NCBI GenBank assembly: GCA_030604405.1 | Contig: JAUVVY010000008.1 | Location: 62,001-126,000, forward strand | From: a bacterium | Lineage (GTDB): Bacteria; Armatimonadota; Zipacnadia; Zipacnadales; UBA11051 | Reading direction: 5' to 3' | DNA: 64,000 nt | In this document: positions 15,817 to 59,162 of the stretch, piece after piece | Position numbering within the stretch: the stretch's first letter is position 1 | Layout: every line of letters starts with the position of its first letter | Position numbers and translations under genes: made by a program | Notes under the pieces: generated by a model | Told to the model about the DNA's origin: nothing | The model's input: the letters and a program-made list of their open reading frames with translations, nothing else | Database searches by the model: none

Positions 15817-15890
15817 TGGCAGGGCATCGGCGAGTTGAGGCGAATGTTACGCAGGTGTACATGCCCAATAGCATCTCAGGAGGCCACCAG

Positions 15891-30492: not shown

Positions 30493-30536
30493 CACCATCA
30501 TCTCCATTCCGATTGCTGACCACTCCGTACGCGATA

Positions 30537-31499: not shown

Positions 31500-34196
31500 C
31501 TAGTCCGCTCTGACCATGGTCGCCGCCAGCGGAATCACAAAGGTGTTCTTACCCTCAATCTCTCGGCGCGGGAAATAGAACTGCTTGGTCGTGTCGCCCT
31601 CTATCATCAGCCCGTGGTCGTAGGTGACCACGATCACGCGCTCGCCGTCCTGCTCCACGATGCGCTCTATCTCATAGCCGTGTGTGTACCCGTTGCCGTG
31701 GGTCACGATCATCCATACGCCGCGCAGGGTGTTCCCCAGTGGCAAGTCGTCAGCGGTCACGAAGGCGTCGTACTCGTCACCATCGGCCTGCCGCAAGCCG
31801 GCCGAGATTTCGCCACGGTACGCCCCGATCTCCGTACTGATACTCCACTGCCTGCACGACAGTCGCTCCCCCTCAAAGAGCCATGCGCCAGTGGTCTGGC
31901 TGCCGACTTGGCGTACTATCCCCAGCCGGCCCCTGATGCTGATGCCGTCGGCGGTTGTGCGCTCCGGGTATGGCGGCTCGTCGAGTGTGCTGATGATGGT
32001 ATCAACAGTGTCGCCGTGGGTTACGCGCAGTGCCACTACACCCACGGCGGCGGGTTCTACTGCCAGCGGCTCCACGGAGTCAATGAACGTTTTCTCGCTG
32101 AAGGGCTCCTCGATAGCCACGAAGGTGGTGGCCAGGGGCGCATCCCCCGTTCGCCGCACCACCAACTGCGGCATCCAGTAGTCGAAGGCCTTGCGGGTGT
32201 CGTGGCTGGCTTTGCGCGGCGTCAGGCTTTTCCCGAGATAGACCTGCACCTGTCCACCCGCAATCACGTGTGTGCGGACACCTTTGTCCGGCTCGTCCAC
32301 ATAGCGGAAGGTAGTCTGCACCAGGCCGTCTGCGCTGTCCTCCTGCACGTCACGGATGCAGCCCCAGACATTGTAGCTGGACTGTTCATCGCGTGGCTCG
32401 ACCCATTCCTCGCCTTCTTCGAGCATATTCTCGCGGGTGCCGGTGAAGTTCACGTTGCACTCTGCGGTCATGTCGTGGTTGCCGCTGCCGTGGACCAGCC
32501 AGTCATGAATACTGCCGCCCCTGACGCGGAACACATCCACGACGTAGGCGTCCTGGTCCGAAACCGGCACTAGCGCCAGCATTCGCCGGTACATATCTAC
32601 GTCCTCGATCTTGCGGTAGCCGCGTTTGCCGTCGGCTTCCGCCATTGACACCCCGTTGGAATCGGGGAAGAAGGCCAGGAGATCGCAGTCGCCGCCGGCC
32701 TGGTTTTGTCGGTCAACGGCCACCAGGTTGTGACTGATGGTAGAGGAACACCACCGCCGCGCCTGTGTGTGGTTGTAGCCCACATCACACAGTATCTCGC
32801 GGTCTTTGGCGAACAGCGTCAGATTAAGGTTATCGAGGTGAGAGTGGCCGTAAGCGCCGGAGAAGTGAAGCTGCGCCTGCATCTGGTGTGGGCCTTCGCC
32901 GCGGCCGAGCGAGGCGTGCCCATAGCCGGGAGTGATGGTGGAAACGGTCTTGATGCGCGGGGAGGAGCGCTGCTCGTTGGGCCAGGTATCGTGAATCGGC
33001 GAGGAGCAGCCATTGGGGAAATCCAGCACCGAGGGCGCGCGCAGTGCTCTGGCGATGAAGGGGTTATCCTTCTTCGGCTCCAGGTTGTCAAACCGCTCGC
33101 CGTATTCTTCGTCAACGTACCCGGGCGGGTCACAATAGCCGGTCAATTCGTTAAAGTTCGCCCCGATGCGCGACAGGGTCTGGTAGTGATACGATGGGGC
33201 CTCGCGCCACATGCCGTCATAGAAGCAGCCGCCGTAGAGTATCTCCAGCATCCAGTGATAGGCCCAGTGCACGTAGTGCGGCTCATTGATGACCTGACCG
33301 ATCCTGGCCGTATTCATCAGGTAACTGGGCGCGATATTGTCAGTGAAATCGTCCCAGGTGTTGATGTATTCCCAGGTACCCTTGAGAAAGTCATTCTCGA
33401 ACTTCTCGCGCACGTCGTAGCCGCGTATCTCGGAGAGCTTGTCGAATTCCTCACTGTCGTATATGAGGTCGTAAGTTTCGGCCATGCCAGATGGGATCTC
33501 GCTCTCCATCCACCGCCCCCATTTGCCGCCTGCTCGCGGCCAGGGCGGCTCCTGCTTGGCCGGGAAGTGGAACGCCGTAATCCACTGATATATGGCCGGG
33601 TAATGCGGATAAAGCTGGGCGATCCGGTCCAGAATCAGGGCAGCTTTTCTGGCGTATTCGGGCTTGCCTGTCGCGTGATAGGCGATCGCCAGGGCACCGG
33701 CCTGCTGCAGTACCCAGCCGCGCTTGAACGTAATAATATGAGCTCGGAAGAACATATTTATGTCCTTCTTCGGCTCGTGGTAGTAGCGGTAACTGAACGG
33801 CTCGCCCAGAGAATTGACGCCCTCGATTACCTGGTCGTCGGGGTATCTGGCATTGGGGAAGACCATGTCGCAGTATTTGCACTTCAGCTCATCAGGCCTG
33901 TCTATGCTCCATGAGAACACGCCGCTGTAGGCGCCGCCGTAGCAGTTGGGGCACTGGACGAATACCCGCATCGGCCGGTTGGGAACATAGGAGAGCATCT
34001 GCTCCTCGTCCATCGCCATGACGCGCTCTACCGCCTGCTCGTAGGTGGCGGCATTGTTCTTGTCAATATTGTGCTCGAGCACGGGATGTTTGATGCCGAC
34101 GGCCTGTCCTGCGCCCAGTGCCGGTAGAGCAACCGCCCCCACCATCACACAGACTACCAGCAGGTCAACGAGATTGCACCCGTTGCAGCTCAACAT
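31500..34196 (-). CDS. Exported heparinase II/III-like protein, array member 6 (last)
   Basis: About 898 residues with a signal peptide ending VGAVALPALGAGQ. Domains are a zinc ribbon (CPNC near residue 82, CKYC near 107), a helical lyase toroid with catalytic-type Tyr in EAPSYHYQT, and a heparinase II/III beta domain with YGHSHLDNLN near 450. A conserved C-terminal beta domain follows, with HGDTVDTIISTLDEPPYPER. These sites fit a beta-eliminating polysaccharide lyase. The start at 34196 is the second of two ATGs; it has good spacing to AAGGGAG and is the position used by the paralogues. It is the most diverged of members 2-6 at the N-terminus. Confidence 0.88.
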   Translation of the reverse strand: MLSCNGCNLVDLLVVCVMVGAVALPALGAGQAVGIKHPVLEHNIDKNNAATYEQAVERVMAMDEEQMLSYVPNRPMRVFVQCPNCYGGAYSGVFSWSIDRPDELKCKYCDMVFPNARYPDDQVIEGVNSLGEPFSYRYYHEPKKDINMFFRAHIITFKRGWVLQQAGALAIAYHATGKPEYARKAALILDRIAQLYPHYPAIYQWITAFHFPAKQEPPWPRAGGKWGRWMESEIPSGMAETYDLIYDSEEFDKLSEIRGYDVREKFENDFLKGTWEYINTWDDFTDNIAPSYLMNTARIGQVINEPHYVHWAYHWMLEILYGGCFYDGMWREAPSYHYQTLSRIGANFNELTGYCDPPGYVDEEYGERFDNLEPKKDNPFIARALRAPSVLDFPNGCSSPIHDTWPNEQRSSPRIKTVSTITPGYGHASLGRGEGPHQMQAQLHFSGAYGHSHLDNLNLTLFAKDREILCDVGYNHTQARRWCSSTISHNLVAVDRQNQAGGDCDLLAFFPDSNGVSMAEADGKRGYRKIEDVDMYRRMLALVPVSDQDAYVVDVFRVRGGSIHDWLVHGSGNHDMTAECNVNFTGTRENMLEEGEEWVEPRDEQSSYNVWGCIRDVQEDSADGLVQTTFRYVDEPDKGVRTHVIAGGQVQVYLGKSLTPRKASHDTRKAFDYWMPQLVVRRTGDAPLATTFVAIEEPFSEKTFIDSVEPLAVEPAAVGVVALRVTHGDTVDTIISTLDEPPYPERTTADGISIRGRLGIVRQVGSQTTGAWLFEGERLSCRQWSISTEIGAYRGEISAGLRQADGDEYDAFVTADDLPLGNTLRGVWMIVTHGNGYTHGYEIERIVEQDGERVIVVTYDHGLMIEGDTTKQFYFPRREIEGKNTFVIPLAATMVRAD

Positions 34197-34294
34197 ATCC
34201 ATCACTCCCTTAACAGTATTATCCCGTGGGTCAAGCTTCCAGCCCGAGCACCCAATCATGCGCTTCGACATCCCGCCGCATCACACGCCCATTA

Positions 34295-37000
34295 TCATTC
34301 CGCCTTGGTCATGGTCACGGCCAGCGGAATATAGAAGCTGTTGATCCCTTCGATGTGGCGGCGCGGGTAGTACACCTCGCCGGTCACGTCATCTTCAATT
34401 CTCAGCCCGTGATCGTCAGTCAACACTATCACCGATTTGCCGTCCTGGTCTTCGATCCGGTCTATCTCGTAGCCGTGCGTGTAACCGTTGCCATGCGTCA
34501 CGATCATCCACACCCCGTGCAGCGCATTGCCTGCTGGTAACCTGGCGGCGGTGACGAGGCTATCGGTTTCCGCGCCATCTGCTTTGCGCGTGGCACTGAT
34601 GATGTCTCCGGTATAGGGTCCTGCATCTGTCTTCAGCGACCAGCCGTCGCCGGCCAGGGCCGCACCGTCCAACAGCCACGCCCCGACCGTCTCACCGTTC
34701 TGCTGCCGGACTATCCCCAGCCGGCCGCTGATGCTGATGCCGTCGGCAGTCACACGCTCCGGGTACGGCGGCTCGTCGAGTGTGCTGATGATGGTGTCAA
34801 CGGTGTTGCCGTGAGTGACGCGCAGGGCGATGGCGCCCTCGGCCTCGGGCACAAGCTGGACGGGTTCCACTCTGGTAATGAACGGCTCCCCGCTGAACGG
34901 CTCTTCGACGGCGACAAAGGTATTCGCCAGAGGTGCTTCGCCGGTGCGACGGGCAACAAGCTGCGGCATCCAGTAGTCCCACGCCTTGGCGCTATCGCTC
35001 TTAGCTTGCCGGATCGAAGGGCTGCGTCCCAGATACACTTCGGTCTCACCGTCCTGGAGTATATGCACCCGCACGCCCTTGTCCGGCTCGTCAACATAGG
35101 CAAAAGTTGTCACCACATCGCCGTCGGTCTTGCCCTCGGCTACCTCCCTGATTGCACCGTACGGGGGAAATCTCGACCCCTCGGTTTTCGGCTCGACCCA
35201 TTCCTCGCCTTCTTCCAGCATATTCTCGCGTCCCGGCGTCAGCTCTACGTTGCACTCCACCGTCATATCGTGGTTGGCGCTCCCGTGCAGCAGCCAGTCG
35301 TGCGTGCTACCACCCCTGACCCGGAAGATGTCCACAACATAGGCATCCCCGGTGGAGACCGGCACCATCACCAACATCCGCCGGTAGGTGTCAAGGCCCT
35401 CAATCTCGCGGTAGCCGGACTTGCCGTCAGCTTCCACCATTGACACGCCATTGGAATCCGGAAAGAAGGCCAGCAGGCTACAGTCACCGCCGACCTGGTC
35501 TTGTCGGTCAACCGCCACCACGTTGTGGCCGATGGTACATACTGTCCAGCGCCGCAGTTTCGTGTGGCTATAGCCGATATCGCACAGCATCTCGCGCTCT
35601 TTGGCGAACAGGCTCAGGTTGAGGTTATCGTAATGCGAGTGCCCGTGTGCGCCGGAAAAATGCAACTGGGCCTGCATCTGATCGGGGCCAGCGCCTCGTC
35701 CCAGCGAGGCGTGTCCGTAGCCGGGGCAGATCGTCGAGATGGTCTCGACCCGTGGCTTGGCGCGGGCGCTGTTGGCCCAGGTGTCGTGGATCGGGCTGAC
35801 GCGGCCATTGGGAAAGCCCACTACTGCCGGGGCGTCCTTCGCCTTGGCGAAGAAGGCGATGTCCTTGTCGGGGTCCAGGTCATCAAACCGTGTGCCATCA
35901 ATTTCGTCAACATAGCCGGGCGGGTCGCTGTAGCCGCGCAGATCCTCGAACCCGTTGCTCAACCCGCCCATCACCTGGTAGTGGTACGACGGCGCTTCAT
36001 GCCACATGCCATCATAGAAGCAGCCGCCCACCAGTATCTCAAGCAGCCACTTGTACGCCCAGTGCACGTAACTGGGCTGTTTGATCACTCTACCGATGCG
36101 CGCGGCCACCGTCAGGTAGAAAGGCGACATGTTGCCCGTGTGGCCTGCGAAGGTATTGACATATTCGAAGGTGGCCTTGAAGAAGTCGTTTTCCAGCTTC
36201 TCACGCACATCGTAGCCGCGTATCTCAGAGAGCTTGTCGAACTCCTCGCTGTCATAGACGAGGTCATAACACTCGGGGACCCCCGAGGGCAGCTCGCTGG
36301 CCATCCACCGGCCCCATTTGCCACCGGCACCCGAGTAAGGCGGATCCTGCGAGTCAGGGAATACGAACATAGTAATCCACTGCCGCATCATCGGGTAGTG
36401 CGGATAGACCTGCGCAATGCGGTCGAGTATCAGTATCGCCCGGCGAGCGTACTCCGCCTTGCCGGTAGCTTGGTATACTCTGCCCAGAGCGCGGCACTGG
36501 CCCATTATCCATCCGCGCTTGAACATCAGGGTGTGCCCGGGGATGAATATCTGCAGGTCACCACGCGTCTTGTCCTGGTGGTAGCGGTACGTGACCGTCT
36601 CGCCCAGGGCGTTCTCCCCCTCGATGACCTGGTCACAGGGATACTGGTCATTGGGGAAGACCATGTCGCAGTACTTGCACTTGAGCTCCTCGGGACGGTC
36701 AATGCTCCAACTGTATATGCTGCTGCCCTGTGAACCGCCGTGGCAGTTGGGGCAGTAGCAGAAGCGCACGAACGGCTTCTCCGGCACGTATGACAGCATC
36801 TCTTCATCGCTCATCGCCATGACCGGCTCAACGGCCTTCTCATAGTCGGCGGCCCTTGCCGGATCGATATTGTGTTCCAGCACCGGGTGCTTGATTCCCA
36901 CTGCCTGCCCGGCGCAGAAGCACCCAGACGCTGAAACCAACGTCAGCATCACTGCCAACACCAGCACATAACTCACCTCATCAATTGCGTGAAGCAACAT
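34295..37000 (-). CDS. Exported heparinase II/III-like protein, array member 5
   Basis: 901 residues. The signal peptide has the core VLVLAVMLTLVSASGCF. The zinc ribbon is CYCPNCHGG and LKCKYCDMVFPN, the toroid Tyr motif EAPSYHYQV, and the beta-domain His motif AHGHSHYDNLN. It keeps the RVTHGNTVDTIISTLDEPPY block (Asn where others have Asp). Its start at 37000 is the only suitable ATG after AAAGGGTGG, which helps to fix the starts of its relatives. The gap to the next gene upstream is 58 bases, consistent with one operon. Confidence 0.88.
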   Translation of the reverse strand: MLLHAIDEVSYVLVLAVMLTLVSASGCFCAGQAVGIKHPVLEHNIDPARAADYEKAVEPVMAMSDEEMLSYVPEKPFVRFCYCPNCHGGSQGSSIYSWSIDRPEELKCKYCDMVFPNDQYPCDQVIEGENALGETVTYRYHQDKTRGDLQIFIPGHTLMFKRGWIMGQCRALGRVYQATGKAEYARRAILILDRIAQVYPHYPMMRQWITMFVFPDSQDPPYSGAGGKWGRWMASELPSGVPECYDLVYDSEEFDKLSEIRGYDVREKLENDFFKATFEYVNTFAGHTGNMSPFYLTVAARIGRVIKQPSYVHWAYKWLLEILVGGCFYDGMWHEAPSYHYQVMGGLSNGFEDLRGYSDPPGYVDEIDGTRFDDLDPDKDIAFFAKAKDAPAVVGFPNGRVSPIHDTWANSARAKPRVETISTICPGYGHASLGRGAGPDQMQAQLHFSGAHGHSHYDNLNLSLFAKEREMLCDIGYSHTKLRRWTVCTIGHNVVAVDRQDQVGGDCSLLAFFPDSNGVSMVEADGKSGYREIEGLDTYRRMLVMVPVSTGDAYVVDIFRVRGGSTHDWLLHGSANHDMTVECNVELTPGRENMLEEGEEWVEPKTEGSRFPPYGAIREVAEGKTDGDVVTTFAYVDEPDKGVRVHILQDGETEVYLGRSPSIRQAKSDSAKAWDYWMPQLVARRTGEAPLANTFVAVEEPFSGEPFITRVEPVQLVPEAEGAIALRVTHGNTVDTIISTLDEPPYPERVTADGISISGRLGIVRQQNGETVGAWLLDGAALAGDGWSLKTDAGPYTGDIISATRKADGAETDSLVTAARLPAGNALHGVWMIVTHGNGYTHGYEIDRIEDQDGKSVIVLTDDHGLRIEDDVTGEVYYPRRHIEGINSFYIPLAVTMTKAE

Positions 37001-37058
37001 ATCTACCACCCTTTCTAAGGTTCTGGGGAATTGGTCCGAAACGTTGCTCGCCTGCATC

Positions 37059-39788
37059 TCACTGCCCCTTGACCATCGCCACTGCCAGCGGAATCACGAA
37101 GCTGTTGGTGCCTTCGATTTCGCGCTGCGGGAAAAAGACCTCTTCAGTTACGCTGCCGTCTATCTTCAGCCCATGGTCGTCGGTCAGCAGTACGAAGGTC
37201 TTGCCGTCGCGGACTTCCACGCGGTCTATCTCGTAGCCGTGGGTGAAGCCGTTGCCGTGGGTGACGATCATCCACACACCGTGCAGCACATCATCGGCAG
37301 GCAACTCCGCGTCGGTAACGAAGGCATCATATTCTGCGCCGTCGGCCTTGCGCGTTGCGGCTTGTATCTGGCCATCGTAGCGGCCCTTCTCAGAAGCGAC
37401 CATCCAGCCGCCCCCGGTCAGCTTCTCGCCTTCAAACAGCCACGCGCCGGTTGTCTTGCCATTCACCTCGCGCAATATTCCCAGCTTGCCATTGAAGGCG
37501 ACACCGTCGGCTGTGACGCGCTGCGGATAGGGCGGCTCGTCGAGAGTGCTGATGATGGTGTCCACGGTGTCGCCGTGAGTGACGCGCAGCGCGATGGCGT
37601 TGTCATCGGCAGGAGTCAACTGCACCCGCTCTACTCTCCTGATAAACGGCTTGCCGGAGTAAGGCTCCTCGACCGCTGCGAACACACTGGCAAGAGGTGC
37701 TTCTGCTTGCCTGCGCACCAGCAGTTGCGGCATCCAGAAGTCGTATGCTTTGCGCATGTCGCCGCGTGTGCCCACCCCCATTCTGCGCACCGAGGGAGCC
37801 CGACCGAGCCACACCTCGGCGGACTGGTCATTGAGCATGTGGATGCGGACGCCCCTGGTCGTCTCTTCAACATAGTTGAAATCCACCTGAAAGTCGCCTT
37901 CAGTCTCTGCATTGGCCACATCGCGGATCATGCCATACGGGTTGAATCTTGCGCCCTCGATGGTCGGCTCCTTCCACTCCTCGCCCTCTTCCAGCATCCA
38001 CTTGCGGCTTCCTGACAAGTCGAGGCTGCACGTGGCCGTTGTATCTTCATCAGCGTCGCCATGCAGCGCCCACTCGTGCATCGAGCCACCGCGGACGCGG
38101 AAAACATCCACCACATAGGCATCCGCATCCGACACCGGAATCATCACCAGCATCCGCCGGTACATGTCAAGGCCCTCGATCTGCTTGTAGCCCCGCTTGC
38201 CGTCGGCATCTACTACCGACACGCCGTTGGAATCAGGGAAAAACCAGAGCAGGTCACCGTCCGACCCACTCCCCTTCTGATCCTGACGGTCTATGACAAC
38301 AGTATTGTGACCGAGCGTGCATGCGCACCAGTAGCGCATCTGCGTCCAGGTATAGCCGAGGTCCGGCAGCATCTCGCGGCCTTTGGCCCACAGTATCAGG
38401 TTGAGATTGTCCAGATGCGTGTGGCCGTATCCGCCGGAGAAATGCAGTTGCGCCTGCATCTGGTCGCCACCTGTGCCGCGCCCCAGCGAAGCATGCCCGT
38501 ACCCGGGCAGGATCGTCGAGACCGTCTTGGCCCGCGCCGGTGCGCCATACTTCGATCCTGCCCAACTGTCGTGGATCGGAGACACACAGCCGTTGGGGAA
38601 GCTGACTATTGCAGGCGCGCTGACGCACCTGGCCCAGAATGGAACCTGCGTGTCGGGGTCGAAGTCGTCGAAGCGGGTGCCGTCTATCTCATCCACATAT
38701 CCGGGCGGGTCGGTATGGCCTCTGACCGTGTCAAACGCGGCTCTGATGCCACCGATAGTCATGTAGTGATAGGAGGGCGCCTCGTGCCACATACCGTCAT
38801 AGAAAAACCCCTCATCCACGTTTTGCTTCATCCATCCGAAGGCCCGGTGGACGTAGGCAGGCTCATTGATGATGCGGCCGAGTATGGCAGCGCCGGCAAT
38901 ATCATAGCCGACGACGTTGCTGACGTGGTAGGGACTGGCGGCGATGACTTCGTAGGTGGCCTTGAAGAAGTCATTCTCCAACCTCTCCCTCACGTCATAG
39001 CCGCGCTCTTCGGAGAGCTTGTCGAACTCCTTGCTCTCGCAGACGAGGTCGTAGGCTGTGAGGAGCGGCTTGGGTATTTCGTTGTGGAAGTACCCCCATT
39101 TGCCGGAGTCCCAGGGATATGGCATCTCCTGCGACTCGCGGAACTTGAACCTGCGGCATCCATTCTGCATGACCGGGTAGTGCGGATAGACCTGGCCGAA
39201 CTTGTCGAGAACGAGAACTACCCGTGCGGCGTACTCCGCCTTGGCGGTGGCCTGGTAAGCCCTGCCCAGAGCGATCAACTGGCCAACGAGCCAGCCGCGC
39301 TTGTGGCGTAGCAGATGGGTGCTGAAGAAGTGGGGGATGTCCTTGTCCTCGTTGAGGTAGTAAGGGAAGCTGATCTCTTCACCGAGCTTGTTCTTGCCCT
39401 TGATGAGCTGGTTCTCGGGGTACTTGTCGTTGGGATAGACGATTTCGTCGCAGAAGCGGCATTTGAGCTCGTCGGGCCGGTCAATGCTCCAGATGAAGAT
39501 ATTGTTGCCCTCGACGCCGCCGTAGCAGTTCGGGCACTCGCAGTAATAGACAATAGCGTACGGCGGAACGAACGACAGCACCTCCTCTTCGCTCATCGCC
39601 ATGACGCGCTCGACGCCCTTTTCGTAGCCAGCCGCATTGTCCTTATCAATCTTGTAATCAAACACCGGATGCTTGACGCCCAGCGCCTGCCCCGCACCAA
39701 ACGCAGTGCCTGCCACACTCACCAGTGCAATCATTACGCTGAGTACGTGCGCTGTGTTGCTCAGACTGGTTTCAAACGTGTTCACCAT
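37059..39788 (-). CDS. Exported heparinase II/III-like protein, array member 4
   Basis: 909 residues. The signal peptide ends VAGTAFGAGQ. It has the zinc ribbon CECPNCYGG and LKCRFCDEIV, the Tyr motif EAPSYHYMT and the His motif GYGHTHLDNLN. The central toroid (for instance HRAFGWMKQNVDEGFFYDGM) is nearly the same as in member 2. The open frame extends upstream to 40058, but that part is an out-of-frame reading of the preceding gene; ATG 39788, with AAAAGGA before it, is the likely start. Confidence 0.88.
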   Translation of the reverse strand: MVNTFETSLSNTAHVLSVMIALVSVAGTAFGAGQALGVKHPVFDYKIDKDNAAGYEKGVERVMAMSEEEVLSFVPPYAIVYYCECPNCYGGVEGNNIFIWSIDRPDELKCRFCDEIVYPNDKYPENQLIKGKNKLGEEISFPYYLNEDKDIPHFFSTHLLRHKRGWLVGQLIALGRAYQATAKAEYAARVVLVLDKFGQVYPHYPVMQNGCRRFKFRESQEMPYPWDSGKWGYFHNEIPKPLLTAYDLVCESKEFDKLSEERGYDVRERLENDFFKATYEVIAASPYHVSNVVGYDIAGAAILGRIINEPAYVHRAFGWMKQNVDEGFFYDGMWHEAPSYHYMTIGGIRAAFDTVRGHTDPPGYVDEIDGTRFDDFDPDTQVPFWARCVSAPAIVSFPNGCVSPIHDSWAGSKYGAPARAKTVSTILPGYGHASLGRGTGGDQMQAQLHFSGGYGHTHLDNLNLILWAKGREMLPDLGYTWTQMRYWCACTLGHNTVVIDRQDQKGSGSDGDLLWFFPDSNGVSVVDADGKRGYKQIEGLDMYRRMLVMIPVSDADAYVVDVFRVRGGSMHEWALHGDADEDTTATCSLDLSGSRKWMLEEGEEWKEPTIEGARFNPYGMIRDVANAETEGDFQVDFNYVEETTRGVRIHMLNDQSAEVWLGRAPSVRRMGVGTRGDMRKAYDFWMPQLLVRRQAEAPLASVFAAVEEPYSGKPFIRRVERVQLTPADDNAIALRVTHGDTVDTIISTLDEPPYPQRVTADGVAFNGKLGILREVNGKTTGAWLFEGEKLTGGGWMVASEKGRYDGQIQAATRKADGAEYDAFVTDAELPADDVLHGVWMIVTHGNGFTHGYEIDRVEVRDGKTFVLLTDDHGLKIDGSVTEEVFFPQREIEGTNSFVIPLAVAMVKGQ

Positions 39789-39844
39789 GCTCCACATCCT
39801 TTTCCTGTTCTCTGTCAACTGCAACTGAATGTGCGCTTTGCGGG

Positions 39845-42553
39845 TCAGTGATTGACGATCGCTGCGGCCAGCGGGATGACGAAGGTGTTCTTGCCTTCGA
39901 TCTCGCGCTGCGGGAAGTATATTTCGCCAGTCTTGTCCCCATGCACCTTCAAACCGTGATCCATGCTCAGCACGATCACGGTCTTGCCGTCTTGCTTCTC
40001 CACGCGCTCTATCGGGTAGCCGTGGGTGAAGCCATTGCCGTGAGTTACGATCATCCATACCCCTTGGAGCATCTGGCCTTCGGGCAAACTGGCATCCGTG
40101 ATGAAGCTGTCTTCATCTGCGCCGTCGGCCTTGCGCGTAGCGGCTTGTATTTCGCCGCTGCAGGCGCCTTTTTCCGATGTGATGCTGCCGTCTTTCGCGA
40201 CGAGCTCTTCTCCCTCGAACAGCCACATGCCGATGGTATTGCCTGCCAGTTGTCGGACTATTCCCAGCCGGCCTTTGATGCTGATGCCGTCTTCGGTTGT
40301 TCGCTCTGGGTATGGCGCTTCATCGAGCGTACTGATGATGGTGTCAACCGTATCGCCGTGAGTCACCTGCAGGGCCACAACACCTTCATCTGTCGGGTTC
40401 ACTTCGAGACGGCTGATGCTGTCAATGAATGGCTCGCCCCCAAACGGCTCCTCGACTGCGACAAAGGTACTTTGCAGGGCACCTGCGCCGTGCCTTCTGA
40501 GGACAAGCTGCGGCATCCAGTACTCAAAGGCCTTGCTGTCTTCGTTCTTAGCCCGGCGCGCCGACGGACTCCGCCCGAGATAGACCTCTGTTGCCTCATC
40601 GCCAAGCACATGGACACGGATGCCTCTATCAGGCTCTTGTGCATACCTGAATGTTGTCACCACATTCTCATCGCTCTTGGCCTCAGCCACGTCTCTGATT
40701 ACGCCGTAGTGGTTGAAGCGCGATCCCTCGCGTGTAGGCTCTTCCCATTCTTCGCCTTCTTCGAGCATATTGTCACGCCCGGGTTCGAGCTCCAGACTAC
40801 ACGTGGCGGTCATGTCATGGTCCGCATCGCCGTGCAGCAGCCAGTCGTGCACCGAGCCACCCTTGGTCCGGAATATGTCCACGACATAGGCGTCCTCATC
40901 AGATACCGGCACCAGCACCAGCAGCCGCCGGTACCTTTCGACGCCTTCGATGCTGTGGTAGCCGCGCTTGCCATCGGCTTCGGTCACGCTGATGCCTTCG
41001 GTGTCCGGGAAATACCACAACAAGTCGCCGGCCGACGCATTTCCGCCACCGTCTTGCATCTTGCGATCGATGGCAACCAGATTGTGCCCGATGGTCCCCC
41101 CATTCCAGCTTCGAACGCGGGTGTGGGTGTAGCCCAGGTCAGACACCATCTCCCGCTCTTTGGCCCAGATGATGAGGTTGAGGTTATCGCGGTGCGAGTG
41201 GCCGTAAGCGCCGGAGAAGTGTAGTTGCGCCTGCATCTGGTTCGTCCCCTCACCGCGCCCTAAAGAGGCATGTCCATAACCCGGGCAGATGGTGGAGACA
41301 GTCTTGTCGCGCGGCTTCGAGCGCCGCTCGCCCGGCCAGGTATCGTGGATCGGACTGGAGCAGCCATTCGGAAAATCCAGCACCGATGGCGCATCGTACG
41401 CCCTGACTATGAATGGGACCTCTTCTTCCGGGACCAGATTGTCGAACCGGGTGCCGTCAACCTCGTCCAGGTAGCCCGCAGGATCGGAATAGCCGTTGAG
41501 ATTGGCAAAGGCGCGCTTGAAATCCCCCAGGATCTGGTAGTGGTACGAGGGCGCCAGGTTCAGCATCCCGTCGTAGAAACAGCGCTGGCAAGCCATGTGC
41601 TTCAGCCAGCCGAACGACCAGTGCACGATGCGCGGCTCGTTGATAACCCACCCGATGATGCCGGCGCGCCGCAGGTTGCGGGTCGAAAGCTGTCCGCCCT
41701 CGGTCAGAGGCGGTGTGTTATTGGCCTCGAATATGGCCTTGAAGAAGTCATTCTCTAGCTTTTCTCGCACGCCATAGCCGCGTTCTTCGGACAGCTTATC
41801 GAATTCATCGCTGTCATAAACAAGGTCATAGCATGGCGCAGGTTGGCCGGGCAGTTCGCTCGCCGTCCAGCGGCCCCACCTGCCACCATTGCTCGGATAC
41901 GGCGGAGCCTGGGAAGCGACAAAATCGAATGTTCCGGTCCACTGCTTGACGACGGGGTAGTGGGGATAGACTTGAGCGATGCGGTCAAGTATCAGCGCCG
42001 CCCGCCGCGCATACTCCGGCTTCTTGGTGGCTTGATACGCCTTCCCCAGCTCAAAGCAGCGAGCCAGGACCCAGCTCCGTTTGCGGGAAAGGATATGCGC
42101 GCCGAAAAACTCTCGCAAGTCGGGGTACTTCTTATCCTGATGGTACTGGTAGGTGATGGTTTCGCCCAGTGCGTTCTTGCCCTCCATGACCTGGTCGTCG
42201 CCATACTGCTCATTGGGAAAGACCATGCCACAGTAGCGGCACTTCAGTTCATCGGGCCTATCCACACTCCAGGTAAAGACGCCATTACCCTGCGAGCCAC
42301 CGTGGCAATTGGGGCAGTAGCAGAATACTGACACCGGCTTTTCGGGTACGAAGGAGAGCATCTCTGCTTCGCTCATCGCCATGACGCGCTCGACTGCCTT
42401 TTCGTATTGGGCCGCCTTTGCCGGGTCAATGCCATAGTCCAGCACCGGATGCTCGATCCCCACCGCTTGCCCAGCGCCCAGAGCCGGCACAGCCACGACC
42501 AGTGCATATACTGAGACCAAATAAAGAATACCAAATCCATAGGAGTTGCACAT
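39845..42553 (-). CDS. Exported heparinase II/III-like protein, array member 3
   Basis: 902 residues. The signal peptide ILYLVSVYALVVAVPALGAG and its leader DNA are almost identical to member 2, while the C-terminal stretch VEKQDGKTVIVLSMDHGL matches member 1. It has the zinc ribbon CYCPNCHGG and LKCRYCGMVFPN, the Tyr motif LAPSYHYQI and the His motif AYGHSHRDNLN. In the segment before the Tyr it has NLAPSYHY where most others have HEAPSYHY. It is a mosaic of its neighbours. Confidence 0.88.
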   Translation of the reverse strand: MCNSYGFGILYLVSVYALVVAVPALGAGQAVGIEHPVLDYGIDPAKAAQYEKAVERVMAMSEAEMLSFVPEKPVSVFCYCPNCHGGSQGNGVFTWSVDRPDELKCRYCGMVFPNEQYGDDQVMEGKNALGETITYQYHQDKKYPDLREFFGAHILSRKRSWVLARCFELGKAYQATKKPEYARRAALILDRIAQVYPHYPVVKQWTGTFDFVASQAPPYPSNGGRWGRWTASELPGQPAPCYDLVYDSDEFDKLSEERGYGVREKLENDFFKAIFEANNTPPLTEGGQLSTRNLRRAGIIGWVINEPRIVHWSFGWLKHMACQRCFYDGMLNLAPSYHYQILGDFKRAFANLNGYSDPAGYLDEVDGTRFDNLVPEEEVPFIVRAYDAPSVLDFPNGCSSPIHDTWPGERRSKPRDKTVSTICPGYGHASLGRGEGTNQMQAQLHFSGAYGHSHRDNLNLIIWAKEREMVSDLGYTHTRVRSWNGGTIGHNLVAIDRKMQDGGGNASAGDLLWYFPDTEGISVTEADGKRGYHSIEGVERYRRLLVLVPVSDEDAYVVDIFRTKGGSVHDWLLHGDADHDMTATCSLELEPGRDNMLEEGEEWEEPTREGSRFNHYGVIRDVAEAKSDENVVTTFRYAQEPDRGIRVHVLGDEATEVYLGRSPSARRAKNEDSKAFEYWMPQLVLRRHGAGALQSTFVAVEEPFGGEPFIDSISRLEVNPTDEGVVALQVTHGDTVDTIISTLDEAPYPERTTEDGISIKGRLGIVRQLAGNTIGMWLFEGEELVAKDGSITSEKGACSGEIQAATRKADGADEDSFITDASLPEGQMLQGVWMIVTHGNGFTHGYPIERVEKQDGKTVIVLSMDHGLKVHGDKTGEIYFPQREIEGKNTFVIPLAAAIVNH

Positions 42554-42617
42554 ATCCATCACTCCTGCAACGCTATTATCGCGTAGCATGGGCTTACCAG
42601 CCTGTGGGCCGTTGCCC

Positions 42618-45317
42618 TCATTCCGTCTTCGTCATCGTCACAGACAGCGGAATAACGAAGCTGTTCGTGCCTTCGATCTCCCGGCGCGGGAAGTACACTT
42701 CTGTCGTCTTATCGCCCTCAATTCGCAGTCCGTGGTCGTCTGTCAGCATGATTATTGTCCTGCCATCCTGCTTCTCAACTCGGTCTATCTCGTAGCCATG
42801 CTTGTAACCATTCCCATGCGTGACAATCATCCACATCCCGTGCAGCGCGCTGCCGGCCGGCAACTCAGCATCGGTGGTGAAGGCGTCGTACTCTGCACCC
42901 TCCGCCTTACGCGTGGCGGCCTGTATTTGGCCTGCATAGCAGCTCTTCTTCGGGTTGATGCGCCAGCCCTTGGCGGCCAGCTCTTCGCCCTCGAGCAGCC
43001 ACATGCCGATGGTCTCGCCATTTGTTTGGCGGACGATTCCCAGCCGCCCCTTGATCGTGATGCCGTCGCCCGTGGCACGTTCCGGGTATGGCGGCTCGTC
43101 AAGCGTGCTGATAATGGTGTCAATGGTGTCTCCGTGGGTCACGCGCAGCGCGACTGCCATGTCGTCCGGTGGCGTCAGCGCCAGCGGCTCGACGCTGCTG
43201 ATGAACGGCCTTTCCGAGTATGGCTCCTCAACTGCGACGAAGGTGTTGGCCAGCGGCGCTTCACCCCTGCGACGGGCTATTAGCTGCGGCATCCAGTAGT
43301 CGTATGCCTTGGCGCTCTCGCTTCCTGCCTGCCGCACCGAAGGGCTGCGCCCCAGGTACACTTCGGTCTCACCATCCCCTAACAGGTACACGCGCACTCC
43401 CTGCTCCGGCTTGTCAACGTAGGCAAAAGTCACCGCAACATCGCCATCGGTCTTACCTTCTGCCACCTCCCTGATTACGCCGTAGGGGTTGAATCTGGAT
43501 CCCTCGGTCCGTGGCTCTTGCCATTCGTCACCGGGCTCCAGCATATTCTCGCGATCGCCGGTAAGCTGCACACTGCACTGCGCCGTCATCTCGTGATTGG
43601 CGCTGCCGTGCAGCAGCCAGTCGTGAATCGTCCCGCCCCTGACACGGAACAGGTCCACAATATAAGCATCCTCGTCGGACACCGGCACCGTCACCAACAT
43701 CCGCCGGTACATATCGAGACCCTCTATGTTCGCGTAGGCGCGCTTGCCGTCTGCCTCCACCACCGCCACACCGTTGGCATCAGGGAAGAAGGCCAGCAGA
43801 TCACCGTCGGACCGGCTGTGGGTCTGCTGTTTGCGATCGACCGCCACCAGGTTGTGCCCGACGGTAGTGACCGTCCAGTTACGCAGCTTGGTGTGGGTAT
43901 AGCCGATGTCGCACAGCATCTCGCGCTCTTTGGCGAAAAGGCTCAGGTTGAGGTTGTCAGAGTGGGCGTGGCCGTAGGCGCCGGAGAAGTGCAGTTGTGC
44001 CTGCATCTGGTGCGGTCCTTCGCCGCGGCCCAGCGAGGCGTGTCCGTACCCGGGGCAGATAGTGGATACCGTCCTCGTCCGGGGTTTGGAACGGCGCTGG
44101 CCGGGCCAGGTATCGTGAATTGTACTCGAGCACCCGTTAGGGAAATCCAGCACTGACGGCGCATCTATGCACCTGGCCAGGAACGGCACTGCCTCTTCGG
44201 GGACCAGATCATCAAAGCGCGTGCCATCAACCTCGTCAACATAGCCGGGAGGGTCCGAATAGCCCCTTACGGTGTTGAATGCCGACCGCAGACCACCCAT
44301 AGTCATGTAGTGGTAGGAGGGCGCCTCATGCCACATGCCGTCATAGAAGAACCCCTCATCAACGTTCTGCTTCATCCAGCCGAAGGCCCGATGGACGTAG
44401 GCCGGCTCGTTGATGACCCGCCCGAGTATCGCGACGCCGGTCACATCATAGCCCACCACGTTGCCCACATGGTACTTACTGGCGGCGGCAGCCTCATAGG
44501 TCACTTTCAGGAAGTCATTCTCCAGCCTCTCCCTGACGTCATAGCCGCGTTCCTGCGATAGCTTGTCGAACTCCTCGCTCTCATAGACCAAATCATAGGG
44601 CCAGATAACGGACTTGGGGATCTCGTTGTGGAAGTTCCCCCATCTTCCCGCGTTCCAGGCGAACGGCGGGGCCTGGGATTTGGCGAACCCAAAGCTGGTG
44701 ATCGGGTGCTGCATCACCGGATAGTGCGGATAGACCTGCGCGGTGCGGTCAAGTATCAGCACTACACGCCGCGCGTACTCCTCGTTGCCGGTGGCGTGGT
44801 AGGCTGTGGCCAGGGCGTTGCATTGGCGCATTATCCAGGAGCGCTTGTGCATCAGGATGTGTGCGCGGATAAAGATCGTCAGGTCGTCGCGCTGCTGGTC
44901 CTGGTGGTAGCGATACGTAATTGTCTCTCCCAGCGCGTTCTTGCCCTCCATTATCTGGTCGTCTGGATATTTCTCATTAGGGAACACCATGCCACAGTAC
45001 TTGCATTTCAGCTCCTCGGGACGGTCAATGCTCCACTCATATATGCCACTGCCCTGCGCGCCGCCGTGGCAGTTGGGGCAGTAGCAGTGCCGAGAGAACG
45101 GCTTGTCCGGCACACAGGAAACCATCTCTTCATCGCTCATCGCCATGACGCGCTCGACGGCCTTCTCATATTGGGCCGCATTTGCCGGGTCAATGCCATA
45201 GTCCAGCACCGGGTGCTTGATGCCCAGAGCTTGCCCAGCGCCCAGAGCCGGCACAGCCACGACCACTGCATATACTGAGACCAAATAAAGAATACTAAAT
45301 CCATCGGAGTTGCACAT
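42618..45317 (-). CDS. Exported heparinase II/III-like protein, array member 2
   Basis: 899 residues. The signal peptide matches member 3. It has the zinc ribbon CYCPNCHGG and LKCKYCGMVFPN, the Tyr motif EAPSYHYMT, the His motif AYGHAHSDNLN and the block HGDTIDTIISTLDEPPYPER. The toroid half matches member 4 most closely. The start is the second ATG after GGAGTG, as in member 3. It lies 64 bases before member 3 and 167 bases after member 1; that gap holds a 45-bp dispersed repeat. Confidence 0.88.
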   Translation of the reverse strand: MCNSDGFSILYLVSVYAVVVAVPALGAGQALGIKHPVLDYGIDPANAAQYEKAVERVMAMSDEEMVSCVPDKPFSRHCYCPNCHGGAQGSGIYEWSIDRPEELKCKYCGMVFPNEKYPDDQIMEGKNALGETITYRYHQDQQRDDLTIFIRAHILMHKRSWIMRQCNALATAYHATGNEEYARRVVLILDRTAQVYPHYPVMQHPITSFGFAKSQAPPFAWNAGRWGNFHNEIPKSVIWPYDLVYESEEFDKLSQERGYDVRERLENDFLKVTYEAAAASKYHVGNVVGYDVTGVAILGRVINEPAYVHRAFGWMKQNVDEGFFYDGMWHEAPSYHYMTMGGLRSAFNTVRGYSDPPGYVDEVDGTRFDDLVPEEAVPFLARCIDAPSVLDFPNGCSSTIHDTWPGQRRSKPRTRTVSTICPGYGHASLGRGEGPHQMQAQLHFSGAYGHAHSDNLNLSLFAKEREMLCDIGYTHTKLRNWTVTTVGHNLVAVDRKQQTHSRSDGDLLAFFPDANGVAVVEADGKRAYANIEGLDMYRRMLVTVPVSDEDAYIVDLFRVRGGTIHDWLLHGSANHEMTAQCSVQLTGDRENMLEPGDEWQEPRTEGSRFNPYGVIREVAEGKTDGDVAVTFAYVDKPEQGVRVYLLGDGETEVYLGRSPSVRQAGSESAKAYDYWMPQLIARRRGEAPLANTFVAVEEPYSERPFISSVEPLALTPPDDMAVALRVTHGDTIDTIISTLDEPPYPERATGDGITIKGRLGIVRQTNGETIGMWLLEGEELAAKGWRINPKKSCYAGQIQAATRKAEGAEYDAFTTDAELPAGSALHGMWMIVTHGNGYKHGYEIDRVEKQDGRTIIMLTDDHGLRIEGDKTTEVYFPRREIEGTNSFVIPLSVTMTKTE

Positions 45318-45422
45318 ATCCATCACTCCTCCAACGTTATTGTGGCGTGGCACAAGCTCGCCCGCCATTTTAATCGCCATAGCCTTGGCGAAGGCGATAG
45401 CCTAGCGACGGCGGGGCTTTCT

Positions 45423-45467
45423 CCTTCGACGTTGCTCAGGGCGGTGAGCTTGTCGAACCGCAGCCTG
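45423..45467. repeat. 45-bp dispersed repeat, copy 2
   Basis: Base-for-base identical to 4895-4939 and in the same orientation. It lies in the widest gap of the lyase array, between members 1 and 2. Confidence 0.8.
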
Positions 45468-45484
45468 TGGGTCGTTGCCTGTCC

Positions 45485-48211
45485 TCATTCCGTCTTCGTC
45501 ACCGTCACCGCCAGCGGGATGACGAAACTGTTCATCCCCTCGAGCGTCCGTTGCGGGTAGAAGACCTCCTGGGTCTGCTCCCCTTCTAGCCTCAGCCCAT
45601 GATCCATGCTCAGTACGATCACGGTCTTGCCGTCTTGCTTCTCTACGCGCTCTATCGGGTAGCCGTGCGTGAAGCCATTGCCGTGAGCGACAATCATCCA
45701 CACCCCGGCCAGGCCGTTACCTTCAGGCAACTCGGCATCGGTGATGAACGCATCGTCTGCAGCCCCGTCCGCTTTGCGCGTAGCGGCTTGTATCTGACCT
45801 GTGTAGCGGCTGTTTGCGGTATCTGCCGTCCAGCCGCCGCCGCGCAGCCCCGCTCCTTCAAACAGCCATGCCCCCGTGGCCTCGCCGTCCACCTGTCGCA
45901 CTATGCCGAGGCGGCCCTTGATAGTGATACCGTGCGCTGTCTTGCGCTCCGGATACGGCGCTTCATCAAGTGTGCTGATGATCGTGTCAACCGTATCGCC
46001 GTGCCTTACCTGCAGGGCGACTGCATTTTCGTCTGACGGCGTCAGTTGCACGAGCTCGATGCTGTCAATAAAGCTATTGCCGCGGAACGGTTCTTCCACT
46101 GCCACAAAGATGCTCTGCAGCGGCTCGTCATCGGCGGCCTGCCGACGCACAACCAGTTGCGGCATCCAGAAGTCGAGTATCTTGGCGTTGTCGCCTTTGC
46201 TGCCGACGCCCGCACGCCGCACTGACGGACTGCTCCCGAGCAACACGCGTGCCGGAGCGTTGCCCAGAACGTGCGTGCGCACCGAGGTATCCGCCACGTC
46301 GCTGTACGTAAAGGTCACGCTGAAGGTGGCGTCGGTATCGGCGAAGCTCAGCTCGCGCATGACGCTGTAGCCGCGACATCCGGCCTGTGGATTGTCCCGG
46401 TCGCTGTCAGCCGGCTCGCTGAGGTCCTCGCGCCTGCCGGTAAGCGGAATGTTGCAGGTTGCGGTCATGTCCTCGTCGGCGCTGCCATGCAGGAGCCAAT
46501 CGTGTGTGGAGCCGCCGCGCGTGCGGAAGATGTCCACGACGTAGGCGTCTTCCTCGGAGACGGGCACAAGCACCAGCATCCGCCGGTACATGCTGACATG
46601 CTCCAGGTTGTTGTAACCCCGCAACCCGTCGGCCTCGACCATCGCAATACCGTTGACGTCGGGGAAGTAGCTCAGCAAGTCGCCGTCAGTAATCCCCCGG
46701 CCCTGTTCCTTGCGGTCCACCACAACCAGGTTGTGGCTTGCAGTGGACCCCGCCCACCAGCGGATCCTGGTCCACGTGTAGCCGATATCTGACAGCATCT
46801 CGCGTTGTTTGGCGAATAGGGTCAGGTTGAGGTTATCGTAGTGCGAGTGCCCGTGATGGCCGGAGAAATGCAGTTGCGCCTGCATCTGGTGCGCATCCGT
46901 CCCACGGCCGAGCGAGGCATGACCGAAGCCCGGGAGAATGGTGGAGGCGGTGGTCGTCCGCGGGCTGGAGCGGCGTTCGTTGGCCCAGGTGTCATGCACC
47001 GGAGTGGAGCAGCCGTTCGGGAAGTCGAGCACCTCGGGCGCATGCTGCACCTTCTGCCAGAACGGCACAGCCGCCAGCGTATCCAGATCGTCGAAGCGGG
47101 TACCGTCCTCTTCGTCCAGATATCCGGGCGGATCCGAATAGCCCTTCAAGTACGAAAACGACCTGCGCAATCCGCCCATCGTCATGTAATGGTAAGACGG
47201 TGATTCGTGCCACATCCCGTCATAGAAACAGCCTGCATTGACGTTGCGCAGCAGCCACCGGAAAGCCCAGTGAACGTACGCCGGCTCGCCGATAACCATG
47301 CCGACTCTGGCCACATTGCCGAGGTATTGCGCGTAGTTGCTGATGTGAGTCGGGTAAGCCTGCGCCGCCGCCACTGTGTCGCGTACGAAGTCGTTTTCGA
47401 ACCGCTCGCGCACGTTGTAGCCGCGGTCCTGCGAAAGCTTGTCCCACCACGGGCTCTCATAGACAAGGTCATACGTGCGAACGGTATGGAAGGGCACCTC
47501 GCTGGAGGGGCTGTGCCACCCCCACTTGCCGGCGGACCAGTTGTACGGCGGCTGCTGATTCTTGTTGATGCGGAAATACCGGTTCTGATTGCTCCCGTGG
47601 ATCGCCACAACATAGTGCGGATAGACGTTGGCGATCTTGTCCAGAACCAGCACCACGCGCCGGGCGTACTCCTCCTTGCTGGTAGCGCTGTAGGCCTTGC
47701 CGAGGTTGTACAGTTGCTGCATCAGCCAGCTACGCTTGCGCCCGGCGATGTAGGCGCTGAAGCAGTGGTAGTAGTCTATGTCTTTGGCATACCACGCCTT
47801 GTAGCGCACCGTTTCGCCGAGGCTGTTCTTGCCCTCCATGATGTCCTTTTCGGGCCATTTCTCATTGGGCCAGATGGCGGTGCCGCAGATCGTGCAGCTC
47901 AACTCATCGGGCCGATCTACCGACCACTTGATGTTGTTGCTGTCTATGCCCTTGTAGCAGTTCGGGCAGCGGACGAATGTCGCCGGACGCTGCTCGGGCA
48001 TCCACGACAGCATCTCCTCCTCGCTCATCGCCATTACACGCTCAACGGCCTTTTCGTATTCTGCCGCCCTGGCCGGATCAATACTATGCTCCAGCACCGG
48101 GTGCTTGATCCCAGCCGCCTGGCCGGCGCCAAAGGCCCACCCGGCCACTGTCCCAATCAGAGCCACTACAACAGGCAACGTCATGCTGATGCACCGCGAA
48201 TCGAGTCCCAT
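45485..48211 (-). CDS. Exported heparinase II/III-like protein, array member 1 (first)
   Basis: 908 residues. The signal peptide is MTLPVVVALIGTVAGWAFGA. The zinc ribbon VRCPNCYKG and LSCTICGTAIWPN is the most diverged of the set. It has the Tyr motif ESPSYHYMT and the His motif HHGHSHYDNLN, and ends with VEKQDGKTVIVLSMDHGL as in member 3. AAGGAGAGG lies seven bases before the start. It is the first gene of the presumed six-gene operon. The toroid differs most from the others, so it is probably the oldest branch or has another substrate. Confidence 0.88.
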   Translation of the reverse strand: MGLDSRCISMTLPVVVALIGTVAGWAFGAGQAAGIKHPVLEHSIDPARAAEYEKAVERVMAMSEEEMLSWMPEQRPATFVRCPNCYKGIDSNNIKWSVDRPDELSCTICGTAIWPNEKWPEKDIMEGKNSLGETVRYKAWYAKDIDYYHCFSAYIAGRKRSWLMQQLYNLGKAYSATSKEEYARRVVLVLDKIANVYPHYVVAIHGSNQNRYFRINKNQQPPYNWSAGKWGWHSPSSEVPFHTVRTYDLVYESPWWDKLSQDRGYNVRERFENDFVRDTVAAAQAYPTHISNYAQYLGNVARVGMVIGEPAYVHWAFRWLLRNVNAGCFYDGMWHESPSYHYMTMGGLRRSFSYLKGYSDPPGYLDEEDGTRFDDLDTLAAVPFWQKVQHAPEVLDFPNGCSTPVHDTWANERRSSPRTTTASTILPGFGHASLGRGTDAHQMQAQLHFSGHHGHSHYDNLNLTLFAKQREMLSDIGYTWTRIRWWAGSTASHNLVVVDRKEQGRGITDGDLLSYFPDVNGIAMVEADGLRGYNNLEHVSMYRRMLVLVPVSEEDAYVVDIFRTRGGSTHDWLLHGSADEDMTATCNIPLTGRREDLSEPADSDRDNPQAGCRGYSVMRELSFADTDATFSVTFTYSDVADTSVRTHVLGNAPARVLLGSSPSVRRAGVGSKGDNAKILDFWMPQLVVRRQAADDEPLQSIFVAVEEPFRGNSFIDSIELVQLTPSDENAVALQVRHGDTVDTIISTLDEAPYPERKTAHGITIKGRLGIVRQVDGEATGAWLFEGAGLRGGGWTADTANSRYTGQIQAATRKADGAADDAFITDAELPEGNGLAGVWMIVAHGNGFTHGYPIERVEKQDGKTVIVLSMDHGLRLEGEQTQEVFYPQRTLEGMNSFVIPLAVTVTKTE

Positions 48212-57116: not shown

Positions 57117-58922
57117 CTAGGCTGGAGAGAGCTGCAATAGGATCTCTACAACAGTTCGACCTGCCGGCATGCCGAATGCAAGCCTCGCCCGGTGCAGGAT
57201 GCGCTCTTGGCCGGCTCGCAGCGGACTCTCTTCAAGCGGCTCTATCTCCCACACCGCGTCTGGCGAGCTGCCGCAGGTTGCCACGACTCGCGTTCGTTCA
57301 CCCTCGATGATGAGTTCGTTGCCCTGGCAGTGCATCGGCAGGCGGCTGACTAGCGCCTCTTCGATGTGTGCGGGCTCGGCCAAGTCGAATAGATCGGTTA
57401 TGGTCAGTGCGTTGACCCGCTGGCCACTTTTGCGCAATTCCCAGCTTCGGCGCAGTAATTTCAGCTCCGGGGCGTCGTAAGCTTGCGCGAACTCGATAAC
57501 GAGCCGGCTAGCCTCCAGGTCTGTTTCGACAAACTCGCCACGGTACTCTGGGCCCGGGCTCTGGAGCCGCCCGCCGACAACCGGCACGCTGTGCCCGCGT
57601 GAGTTGGCATAAACGTTGTCATAGCGCGTGGGGCTGAAGAATTCCCGGGTGTAGTCCGGCGGCCCCGGGTCGCACAAGAGCGTCTCGCCCGCCGCGTGCA
57701 GAATGAATGAGCCGACATCGTTGTGATTGTGGTTCTCGGCATTGTGCCCGGCCTTGACGATAAGCACAAGCGGGGCCCCCGAGGGCGCCATCGCGCTCAA
57801 TCTCGCTACCTCGCCGTCTGGCAGATAGGCAGACGGTTGTGCCGGCGGCTCAGCGCAGTGTCCGTTCCACCAGTAGAGCTCGCGCAAAGCCATCGGCAGG
57901 CGGATTGCGGCCGCCCGATTGTTGTCATCAGGTCTGAGCAAGCCGAGAAGCTCGGGAGTGTTGGTGCGCTCGGCCAGCCGCGCAATGAAGCCGCGACCAA
58001 ATGCCGCCGTCTCCACGCAGTCAGAAAATGAAGCGAACCTTCCGGGCGAAAGGGTCATGCACAGTGGAAAGTGGGCGATCTTGCGCATCTTTTCACCGGC
58101 CAGGATGTCTATTGCGCCACCGGTGCGGGCCCTGAGCAGCTCCCCAAACAGCACATAGAAAGATAAGCCGTAGTGCCAGTAGGACACGCCCTCAGTGGAG
58201 GTCCCATCATCGCAGAAGGCCTCGGCCAGGAAGGCGTCGAGACTGTGGAGGATGCTCGCAATGTCGCCAGCCAGCAAGGTTTCGTCATCCTCAAGGTGGA
58301 GTGCAGTCGCCCCGACTGAGCCGCTGCAAACACCATTCCAGTTGTTGGTGCCCTCGTACCACCACAGGTCGTCAGTACTGGCACGGAAAGGGTCAAGCAC
58401 CCGCCGGTAGATTTCGTCTCTGGCCCGCTGCGAAACCTCATCGGGTAACTGCTCGGCGAGCAGTCGCACCGTTTCCGCCAGAATCAAGGCAGTCTCGGCC
58501 GAGAACAGGTCAATCTTGACCTGCTCGTGCGCCGGCAGAACCCAGTTAGTCTCCTCGCAGATGTCCCAGACGTAGTCGCAGACGTGGCCGAGCGCATTGT
58601 CGTCAACAAAAGCGGCCAGCAAAACAGCCTGACACAGCCGCTGGCGCTTTGCAAAATAGGGGCCCTCGTAGCCCTTGCGGCTGCCGGTGCGGGCATACTC
58701 GCGGTAGAGTGTGTAGCTGGTCAGCGGGATAGCGGGAAGGTCGTGTGGCTCGGGCAAACGCGCGCTGACATACGCTCGTGCGTCTGCTGTGACAGCTACC
58801 GCATCCGGCGCTGGCAGCAACTCTTCGAGCAGCGGTCGCCGTGGCCCGACGCTGCGTAGAGCTTGCAGTAGCTCGTCTGCGCTGTACAGCAGGCCTGATT
58901 TGCCACGCGCTTGCTCTGGCAT
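57117..58922 (-). CDS. Cytoplasmic heparinase II/III-like protein
   Basis: A 601-residue protein with no signal peptide, so it should act inside the cell on imported oligosaccharides. The helical toroid carries TNNWNGVCSGSVG and EGVSYWHYGLSFY, holding the Asn and Tyr expected of the active site. The beta domain has HNAENHNHNDVGSFIL with the catalytic-type His, then LLCDPGPPDYTREFF. It lacks the N-terminal zinc ribbon and the C-terminal block of the six array members, so it belongs to another branch. The start at 58922 is preferred because GGGGAGG directly abuts the ATG at 58928. Confidence 0.88.
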   Translation of the reverse strand: MPEQARGKSGLLYSADELLQALRSVGPRRPLLEELLPAPDAVAVTADARAYVSARLPEPHDLPAIPLTSYTLYREYARTGSRKGYEGPYFAKRQRLCQAVLLAAFVDDNALGHVCDYVWDICEETNWVLPAHEQVKIDLFSAETALILAETVRLLAEQLPDEVSQRARDEIYRRVLDPFRASTDDLWWYEGTNNWNGVCSGSVGATALHLEDDETLLAGDIASILHSLDAFLAEAFCDDGTSTEGVSYWHYGLSFYVLFGELLRARTGGAIDILAGEKMRKIAHFPLCMTLSPGRFASFSDCVETAAFGRGFIARLAERTNTPELLGLLRPDDNNRAAAIRLPMALRELYWWNGHCAEPPAQPSAYLPDGEVARLSAMAPSGAPLVLIVKAGHNAENHNHNDVGSFILHAAGETLLCDPGPPDYTREFFSPTRYDNVYANSRGHSVPVVGGRLQSPGPEYRGEFVETDLEASRLVIEFAQAYDAPELKLLRRSWELRKSGQRVNALTITDLFDLAEPAHIEEALVSRLPMHCQGNELIIEGERTRVVATCGSSPDAVWEIEPLEESPLRAGQERILHRARLAFGMPAGRTVVEILLQLSPA

Positions 58923-59162
58923 TTGCATCCTCCCCTTGCCGTGCAGTTGCCCAGTACGAGTACTGCCAGTCGTCCGAGCGCTCCTGCTGGATACGCGATA
59001 GATTCTTCGCCGCGAGGGTCAGTGCCTCCTTTTGCCCGCCGGCGTGGTGCCGGAGGAAAGCCCGGCAAATCGGCTGCAACGCGGCCGTCGGCAGGTATTT
59101 CGGTGCTGTGGCGCGAAATCGTGTGTGGGCGCAATCACAAGCAAAGATGGAAGCGGAGTTAG

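Follow-up and report, generated by a model that had tools for sequence, protein, structure and literature searches.

A conserved tandem array of six predicted exported polysaccharide lyases in a Zipacnadia genome, with occasional gene conversion between copies

At 31500-48211 of the window (the whole stretch of DNA analysed, 64,000 nucleotides), six genes follow one another head to tail on the minus strand. They probably encode exported beta-eliminating polysaccharide lyases and constitute an old, diverging tandem set under purifying selection, with occasional gene conversion between copies. Lyase activity, substrate class, co-transcription and a division of labour among the copies are what we infer from the data below.

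Six exported heparinase-like genes in tandem

The array comprises six ORFs of 908-923 aa, numbered M1-M6 in the order of transcription, with M1 at the high-coordinate end (Table 1). All six products match PF07940 (Hepar_II_III_C), with scores of 33-42 bits against a gathering cut-off of 24, and all contain a signal peptide, a CPxC...CxxC zinc-ribbon motif and the motifs PSYHY, GHxHxDNLN and (V/I)DTIISTLDE, bearing out the sequence-only reading of the region as six tandem, exported heparinase-like genes. No NCBIfam family was found for the members tested (M1, M2 and M6). From copy to copy, M1-M6 are 54-67% identical in protein (around 60%) and 61-71% in DNA; a seventh gene of this clade, M7, is located on another contig.

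To judge by their sequence, the ATGs listed for four genes (M2, M3, M5 and M6) are probably too far upstream; each of the four has, 10-23 codons into its longest ORF, another start that opens on a plausible signal peptide. GGAG-type sites precede the downstream starts of M2, M3 and M6, which have in common a GGAGTG-ATGGATATG motif at the inner start, and a AAGGAGAG-like site is found upstream of M1. A 999-aa ORF for M4, reaching 40058, was discarded as an over-extension into M3. When the revised starts are used, together with the second ATG for M4, the intergenic gaps measure 56-161 bp, which is compatible with an operon. Promoter scanning performed at chance level, neither promoters nor terminators stood out from chance in the array, and an Rfam search of 25-52 kb returned no match.

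Upstream of M1, a 69-bp unit is repeated 2.9 times (window 48629-48830) and contains the palindrome GTCAGGCTTTCCAGCCTGAC, which has 31 copies genome-wide with at most one mismatch, versus 1 in the reversed control, marking a putative REP-like dispersed element. A second palindrome of this repeat, GTCGGGCA..TGCCCGAC, also occurs between array genes of the sister species G001. Directly downstream of the array, and on the same strand, there are two DUF1559 pseudopilin-like genes (PF07963 and PF07596; window 29803-31384).

Table 1. Coordinates of the array genes, related genes and conversion tracts (window positions unless a contig is given)
Feature	Position	Strand	Description	Basis or identity
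M1	45485..48211	-	First array gene, 908 aa, Hepar_II/III-like, exported	Sequence and Pfam
M2	42618..45380	-	920 aa; probable true start 45323; leader overwritten by M3-type sequence	
M3	39845..42589	-	914 aa; probable start 42559; Gln at the catalytic-site Asn position	
M4	37059..39797	-	~910 aa	
M5	34295..37057	-	920 aa; probable start 37000	
M6	31500..34271	-	923 aa; probable start 34202	
M7	C51:51275-54031		Seventh member of the array clade, other contig	65% identity to M2
Distant Hepar_II/III-like gene	57117..58928	-	603 aa, outside the array	
Distant Hepar_II/III-like gene	15816..20114	+	1432 aa, outside the array, directly upstream of three UxuA-like genes	
Leader tract, M2 side	45140..45365	-	Recent M3-to-M2 conversion, ~200-250 bp, ends approximate	
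Leader tract, M3 side	42345..42590	-	Donor, ends approximate	
Toroid tract, M2	44292..44489	-	M2 residues 298-363, older tract common to M4	

Gene conversion is real but limited

Windowed identity recovered all of the patchy similarities to which the sequence-only reading had drawn attention, that is, the leaders of M2 and M3, the toroids of M2 and M4, and the C-termini of M1 and M3. The leaders of M2 and M3 are 91-93% identical in nucleotide sequence; identity reaches 86-90% in the toroid of M2 and M4, and 95% over residues 854-882 of M1 and M3, compared with 61-71% for whole genes. A GENECONV-like permutation test at the DNA level (800 permutations) gave z scores of 23 for the M2-M3 leader, 14 for M2-M4 (residues 298-363), 14 for M1-M3 (854-882) and 10 for M4-M7 (793-868), the last one involving the copy on another contig, and none of the four scores was reached in any permutation.

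The M2-M3 leaders share 90% of their 4-fold sites, as against baselines of ~77% for orthologues and 45% for paralogues, and each leader is less similar to that of its own orthologue (67% nt for M2 and 84% nt for M3) than they are to each other (93%). Because the M2 leader of the sister species is of the M6 type (84% aa), whereas the M3 leader matches that of its counterpart in G001, the conversion ran from M3 to M2. It is thus certain that some 240 bp of the M3 signal-peptide region overwrote that of M2 after the split from the sister species. This tract comprises the signal peptide and the start of the mature protein, outside the substrate cleft.

The M2-M4 tract spans the catalytic Asn and Tyr, and is present in the sister species too. 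Synonymous identity in the inner tracts is intermediate (58% for M2-M4, 66% for M4-M7 and 75%, over 12 sites, for M1-M3), with most of the values near the paralogue background, and a permutation test on silent sites found no tract, suggesting that these three exchanges are older and took place roughly at or before the species split. We did not retain the similarity between M2 and M5 as conversion, since its synonymous identity (54%) equals the background, indicating ordinary kinship or constraint.

These tracts, at z 10-23, could also be taken as signs of a recombination hot spot, in which frequent conversion, also with the seventh copy, would keep reshuffling substrate specificity. PHI was significant on the array (P = 0.001), but it was significant on the control set as well, and we discarded it as evidence of recombination. 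Likewise, trees from segments chosen after inspection strongly rejected each other in AU tests; with pre-set equal segments, however, 24 of 30 cross-tests conflicted in the array versus 17 of 30 in the control, a set with mostly a single gene from each genome, and only one of the six segments rejected the full-length tree. We therefore abandoned a general model of mosaic genes and kept only claims at the level of tracts. Given, in addition, that synonymous sites of the inner tracts are near background, that the silent-site test was empty, and that a single tract clearly postdates the species split, and lies outside the cleft, we consider a hot spot unlikely.

Mosaicism is thus real but limited, with a handful of conversion tracts over mainly vertical descent. 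The sequence-only reading, which had invoked recombination among the copies and regarded a single consistent tree as its refutation, holds for some tracts, which persist beside a full-length tree that nearly all segments accept, but recombination is not supported as the chief force behind the array, because each copy has its own orthologue. Its further suggestion that recombination generates substrate diversity is not supported: as the sole clearly post-split tract falls outside the substrate cleft, any such role could be no more than minor, and would fall to the older M2-M4 tract in the toroid.

The array proteins look like PL40- and PL17-type lyases

An AlphaFold2 model of M2, built with 62 relatives, consisted of a toroid and a beta-sandwich (pLDDT 92.1, pTM 0.88), and M3, modelled separately (pLDDT 90.6), had the same structural neighbours. 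In searches of the M2 model with Foldseek and VIA-align, the top match was the PL40 ulvan lyase Uly1040 (Z 39.1, 642 aligned residues within 54-918, rmsd 4.2), ahead of PL17 (VIA-align Z 35-36), PL39 and PL12 (VIA-align Z ~30) and, overall, PL12, PL39, PL15, PL21, PL33 and PL35 (Z 23-30). A search with a family profile of 62 sequences likewise retrieved Uly1040 (3.2e-42), PL17 (1e-38 to 1e-21) and PL12 (1e-16), whereas a phmmer search of PDB sequences with M2 alone gave chance matches only, Uly1040 being absent at E<=1.

In the profile alignment, residues N307, Y356, D423, H471 and H473 of M2 correspond to Asn245, Tyr305, Asp358, His485 and His487 of Uly1040, to which mutagenesis and structure assign, in that order, neutralisation of the carboxylate, the roles of acid, base activator and base, and metal binding (PMC12915356). 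The Tyr, the Asp and both His are invariant across the array and its orthologues, and the Asn is kept in all array genes except M3. In the M3 lineage (L049, L052 and L059 besides the window copy), a Gln replaces this Asn in four genomes, as aligned within a variable loop that was modelled at low confidence (block pLDDT 57).

The array proteins share with Uly1040 (PDB 9VTK; PMC12915356) an (alpha/alpha)6 toroid, an antiparallel beta-sheet and the Asn/Tyr/Asp/His/His set. They differ in an extra N-terminal zinc-ribbon motif, in an identity of ~15%, which by single-sequence search is below the level of a CAZy family, and in lacking the Trp (rarely His) that follows the Asn in PL40; the residues following the Asn or Gln in M1-M6 are Y, V, L, V, M and I. 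Because this Trp is absent and the single-sequence PDB search gave no PL relatives, we did not file the array under PL40, whose homologues are reported to be 92.6% from Bacteroidota (PMC12915356). The PL17 alginate lyases Alg17C and AlgL17 appear similar in fold and catalytic layout, but their identity is 17-21% and the match is shorter than that to Uly1040, covering residues 53-786 and missing the last 130 residues of the array proteins. PL12 heparinase III, PL39, PL15, PL21, PL33 and PL35 have the superfamily fold in common with the array, are less similar than PL40 and PL17, and their substrates cannot be transferred to it; for the whole superfamily, the name heparinase does not predict the substrate (PMC12088678). 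Overall, the array proteins look like PL40/PL17-type lyases in their working design, and the conserved catalytic residues agree with the exported lyases predicted by the sequence-only reading.

Transferring the mechanism of Uly1040, and using M2 numbering, a uronic-acid chain would bind in the cleft between the toroid and beta-sandwich domains, where Asn307 (Gln in M3) would neutralise the carboxylate, His471 would take the C5 proton, with help from Asp423 and from a metal that His473 binds, and Tyr356 would give a proton to the leaving oxygen. The substrate would be, we infer, a uronate polymer. Positions that are fixed among orthologues and show at least three states among paralogues are more frequent in the toroid (48/274 vs 23/303, Fisher P = 3e-4), which in relatives contributes a large part of the substrate cleft. 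Given this concentration of divergence, the copies probably act on different, though related, linkages of a polymer rich in uronates. Short conversion events have now and then carried patches from one copy to another.

The same fold houses human dermatan sulfate epimerase (Z 28.1 to the M2 model), and the array could instead encode uronyl C5-epimerases or other sugar-modifying enzymes. The Gln for Asn in M3 also counts against lyases, and so do the low genome-wide numbers of GH88 matches (just one, odd for a lyase specialist) and of UxuA matches (three). Nevertheless, the proteins are far nearer to lyases in both sequence and structure (PL40 Z 39, PL17 Z 36) and conserve the lyase residue set, making epimerases or the like very improbable.

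The array is old and conserved

In the sister species, a single contig carries M1-M5 in unchanged order and M6 lies on a separate contig, each gene being 86-90% identical to its orthologue; the more distant congeners G002 (M3 76%, M6 77%) and G004 (M4 67%, M3 64%) keep subsets. Orthologues have dN/dS values of 0.14-0.24. In the family tree, the array copies are interspersed with sequences that come from further genera and families within the order, indicating that the duplications are old; the copies would thus derive from duplications preceding the genus and be kept in tandem by purifying selection. In G001 (L049, contig C330), the M1 and M2 orthologues are each broken into two frames that overlap, and each lacks a short stretch, due to either assembly error or gene decay.

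Six alike copies in a draft genome, with array contigs broken in sister assemblies, might suggest a recent tandem amplification or an assembly artefact, an explanation that we regard as practically eliminated, because the copies are just 54-67% identical, clade members from elsewhere in the order interleave with them and, decisively, the order M1-M5 was assembled independently in G001. Considering the mostly ordinary descent, the conserved order and the low dN/dS, we regard the tandem set as a long-standing, conserved family of enzymes that are diverging, and not as a recombination-driven generator of diversity.

A large family expansion without TonB receptors

The genome (G000) is a 4.37 Mb draft in 96 contigs, with 58 PF07940 matches over the cut-off. 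An iterative profile over the examined regions retrieved 81 ORFs, corresponding to ~76 Hepar_II/III-like genes once fragments, very weak matches and a gene interrupted by an in-frame TGA (L082, contig C16, ~70.1-73.3 kb) were left out. Among 79 aligned rows, 77 conserve His471 and 76 conserve Tyr356, while 52 have the complete NYDHHH set. The window contains eight members, the six of the array and two more distant ones; further tandem pairs and triplets occur on contigs C3, C33, C57, C61, C71 and C96, and the genome also has 1500-aa forms. First-look counts over 201 genomes of the phylum gave 64 here, 83 in a congener and fewer than 20 in most others. The named relatives are Candidatus Zipacnadia or Armatimonadota MAGs, and plasmids yielded distant partial relatives only.

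Like SusCD-type PULs, the array groups exported polysaccharide-degrading enzymes next to sugar-acid genes; unlike them, it contains no other enzyme classes. The absence of a SusC-type transporter, already noted in the sequence-only reading, extends to the entire genome, where the TonB receptor barrel PF00593 had no match while control genomes gave matches. The genome holds one GH88 (unsaturated uronyl hydrolase) over the threshold, ~16 sulfatases and, as its sole PF03786 matches, three tandem UxuA/xylose-isomerase-like TIM-barrel genes (window 19849-23241). An AraA-like isomerase, a xylose-isomerase-like protein and a GH141-like beta-helix protein are also encoded near the array, a neighbourhood that leans toward sugar-acid catabolism and does not name the substrate. 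Across ~55 heparinase loci compared, recurrent neighbours were only small groups in 3-8 loci; that found in eight loci is Gfo/Idh oxidoreductase-like by sequence appearance.

The main text of the class description presents extracellular hydrolysing CAZymes as uncommon, and contains no occurrence of 'heparin' or 'polysaccharide lyase' (PMC10290634); the superfamily expansion in this lineage is exceptional and apparently undescribed. We propose, as a tentative possibility, that Zipacnadia may be specialists in uronate-polymer lyases, with a hugely expanded, not-yet-classified PL family (~76 genes in this genome), part of it zinc-ribboned, operating without TonB receptors and nearly without GH88, and with array specificity diverging in the toroid and now and then swapped between copies by conversion.

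The genome-wide expansion to ~76 members is a larger finding than the array itself, and a class reported to have few extracellular carbohydrate enzymes has one of the largest Hepar_II/III-like sets of its phylum. If these proteins are lyases, the six-gene array would offer natural variants on one scaffold for tracing the determinants of substrate choice, and the class would have a different ecological role in sediment carbon turnover.
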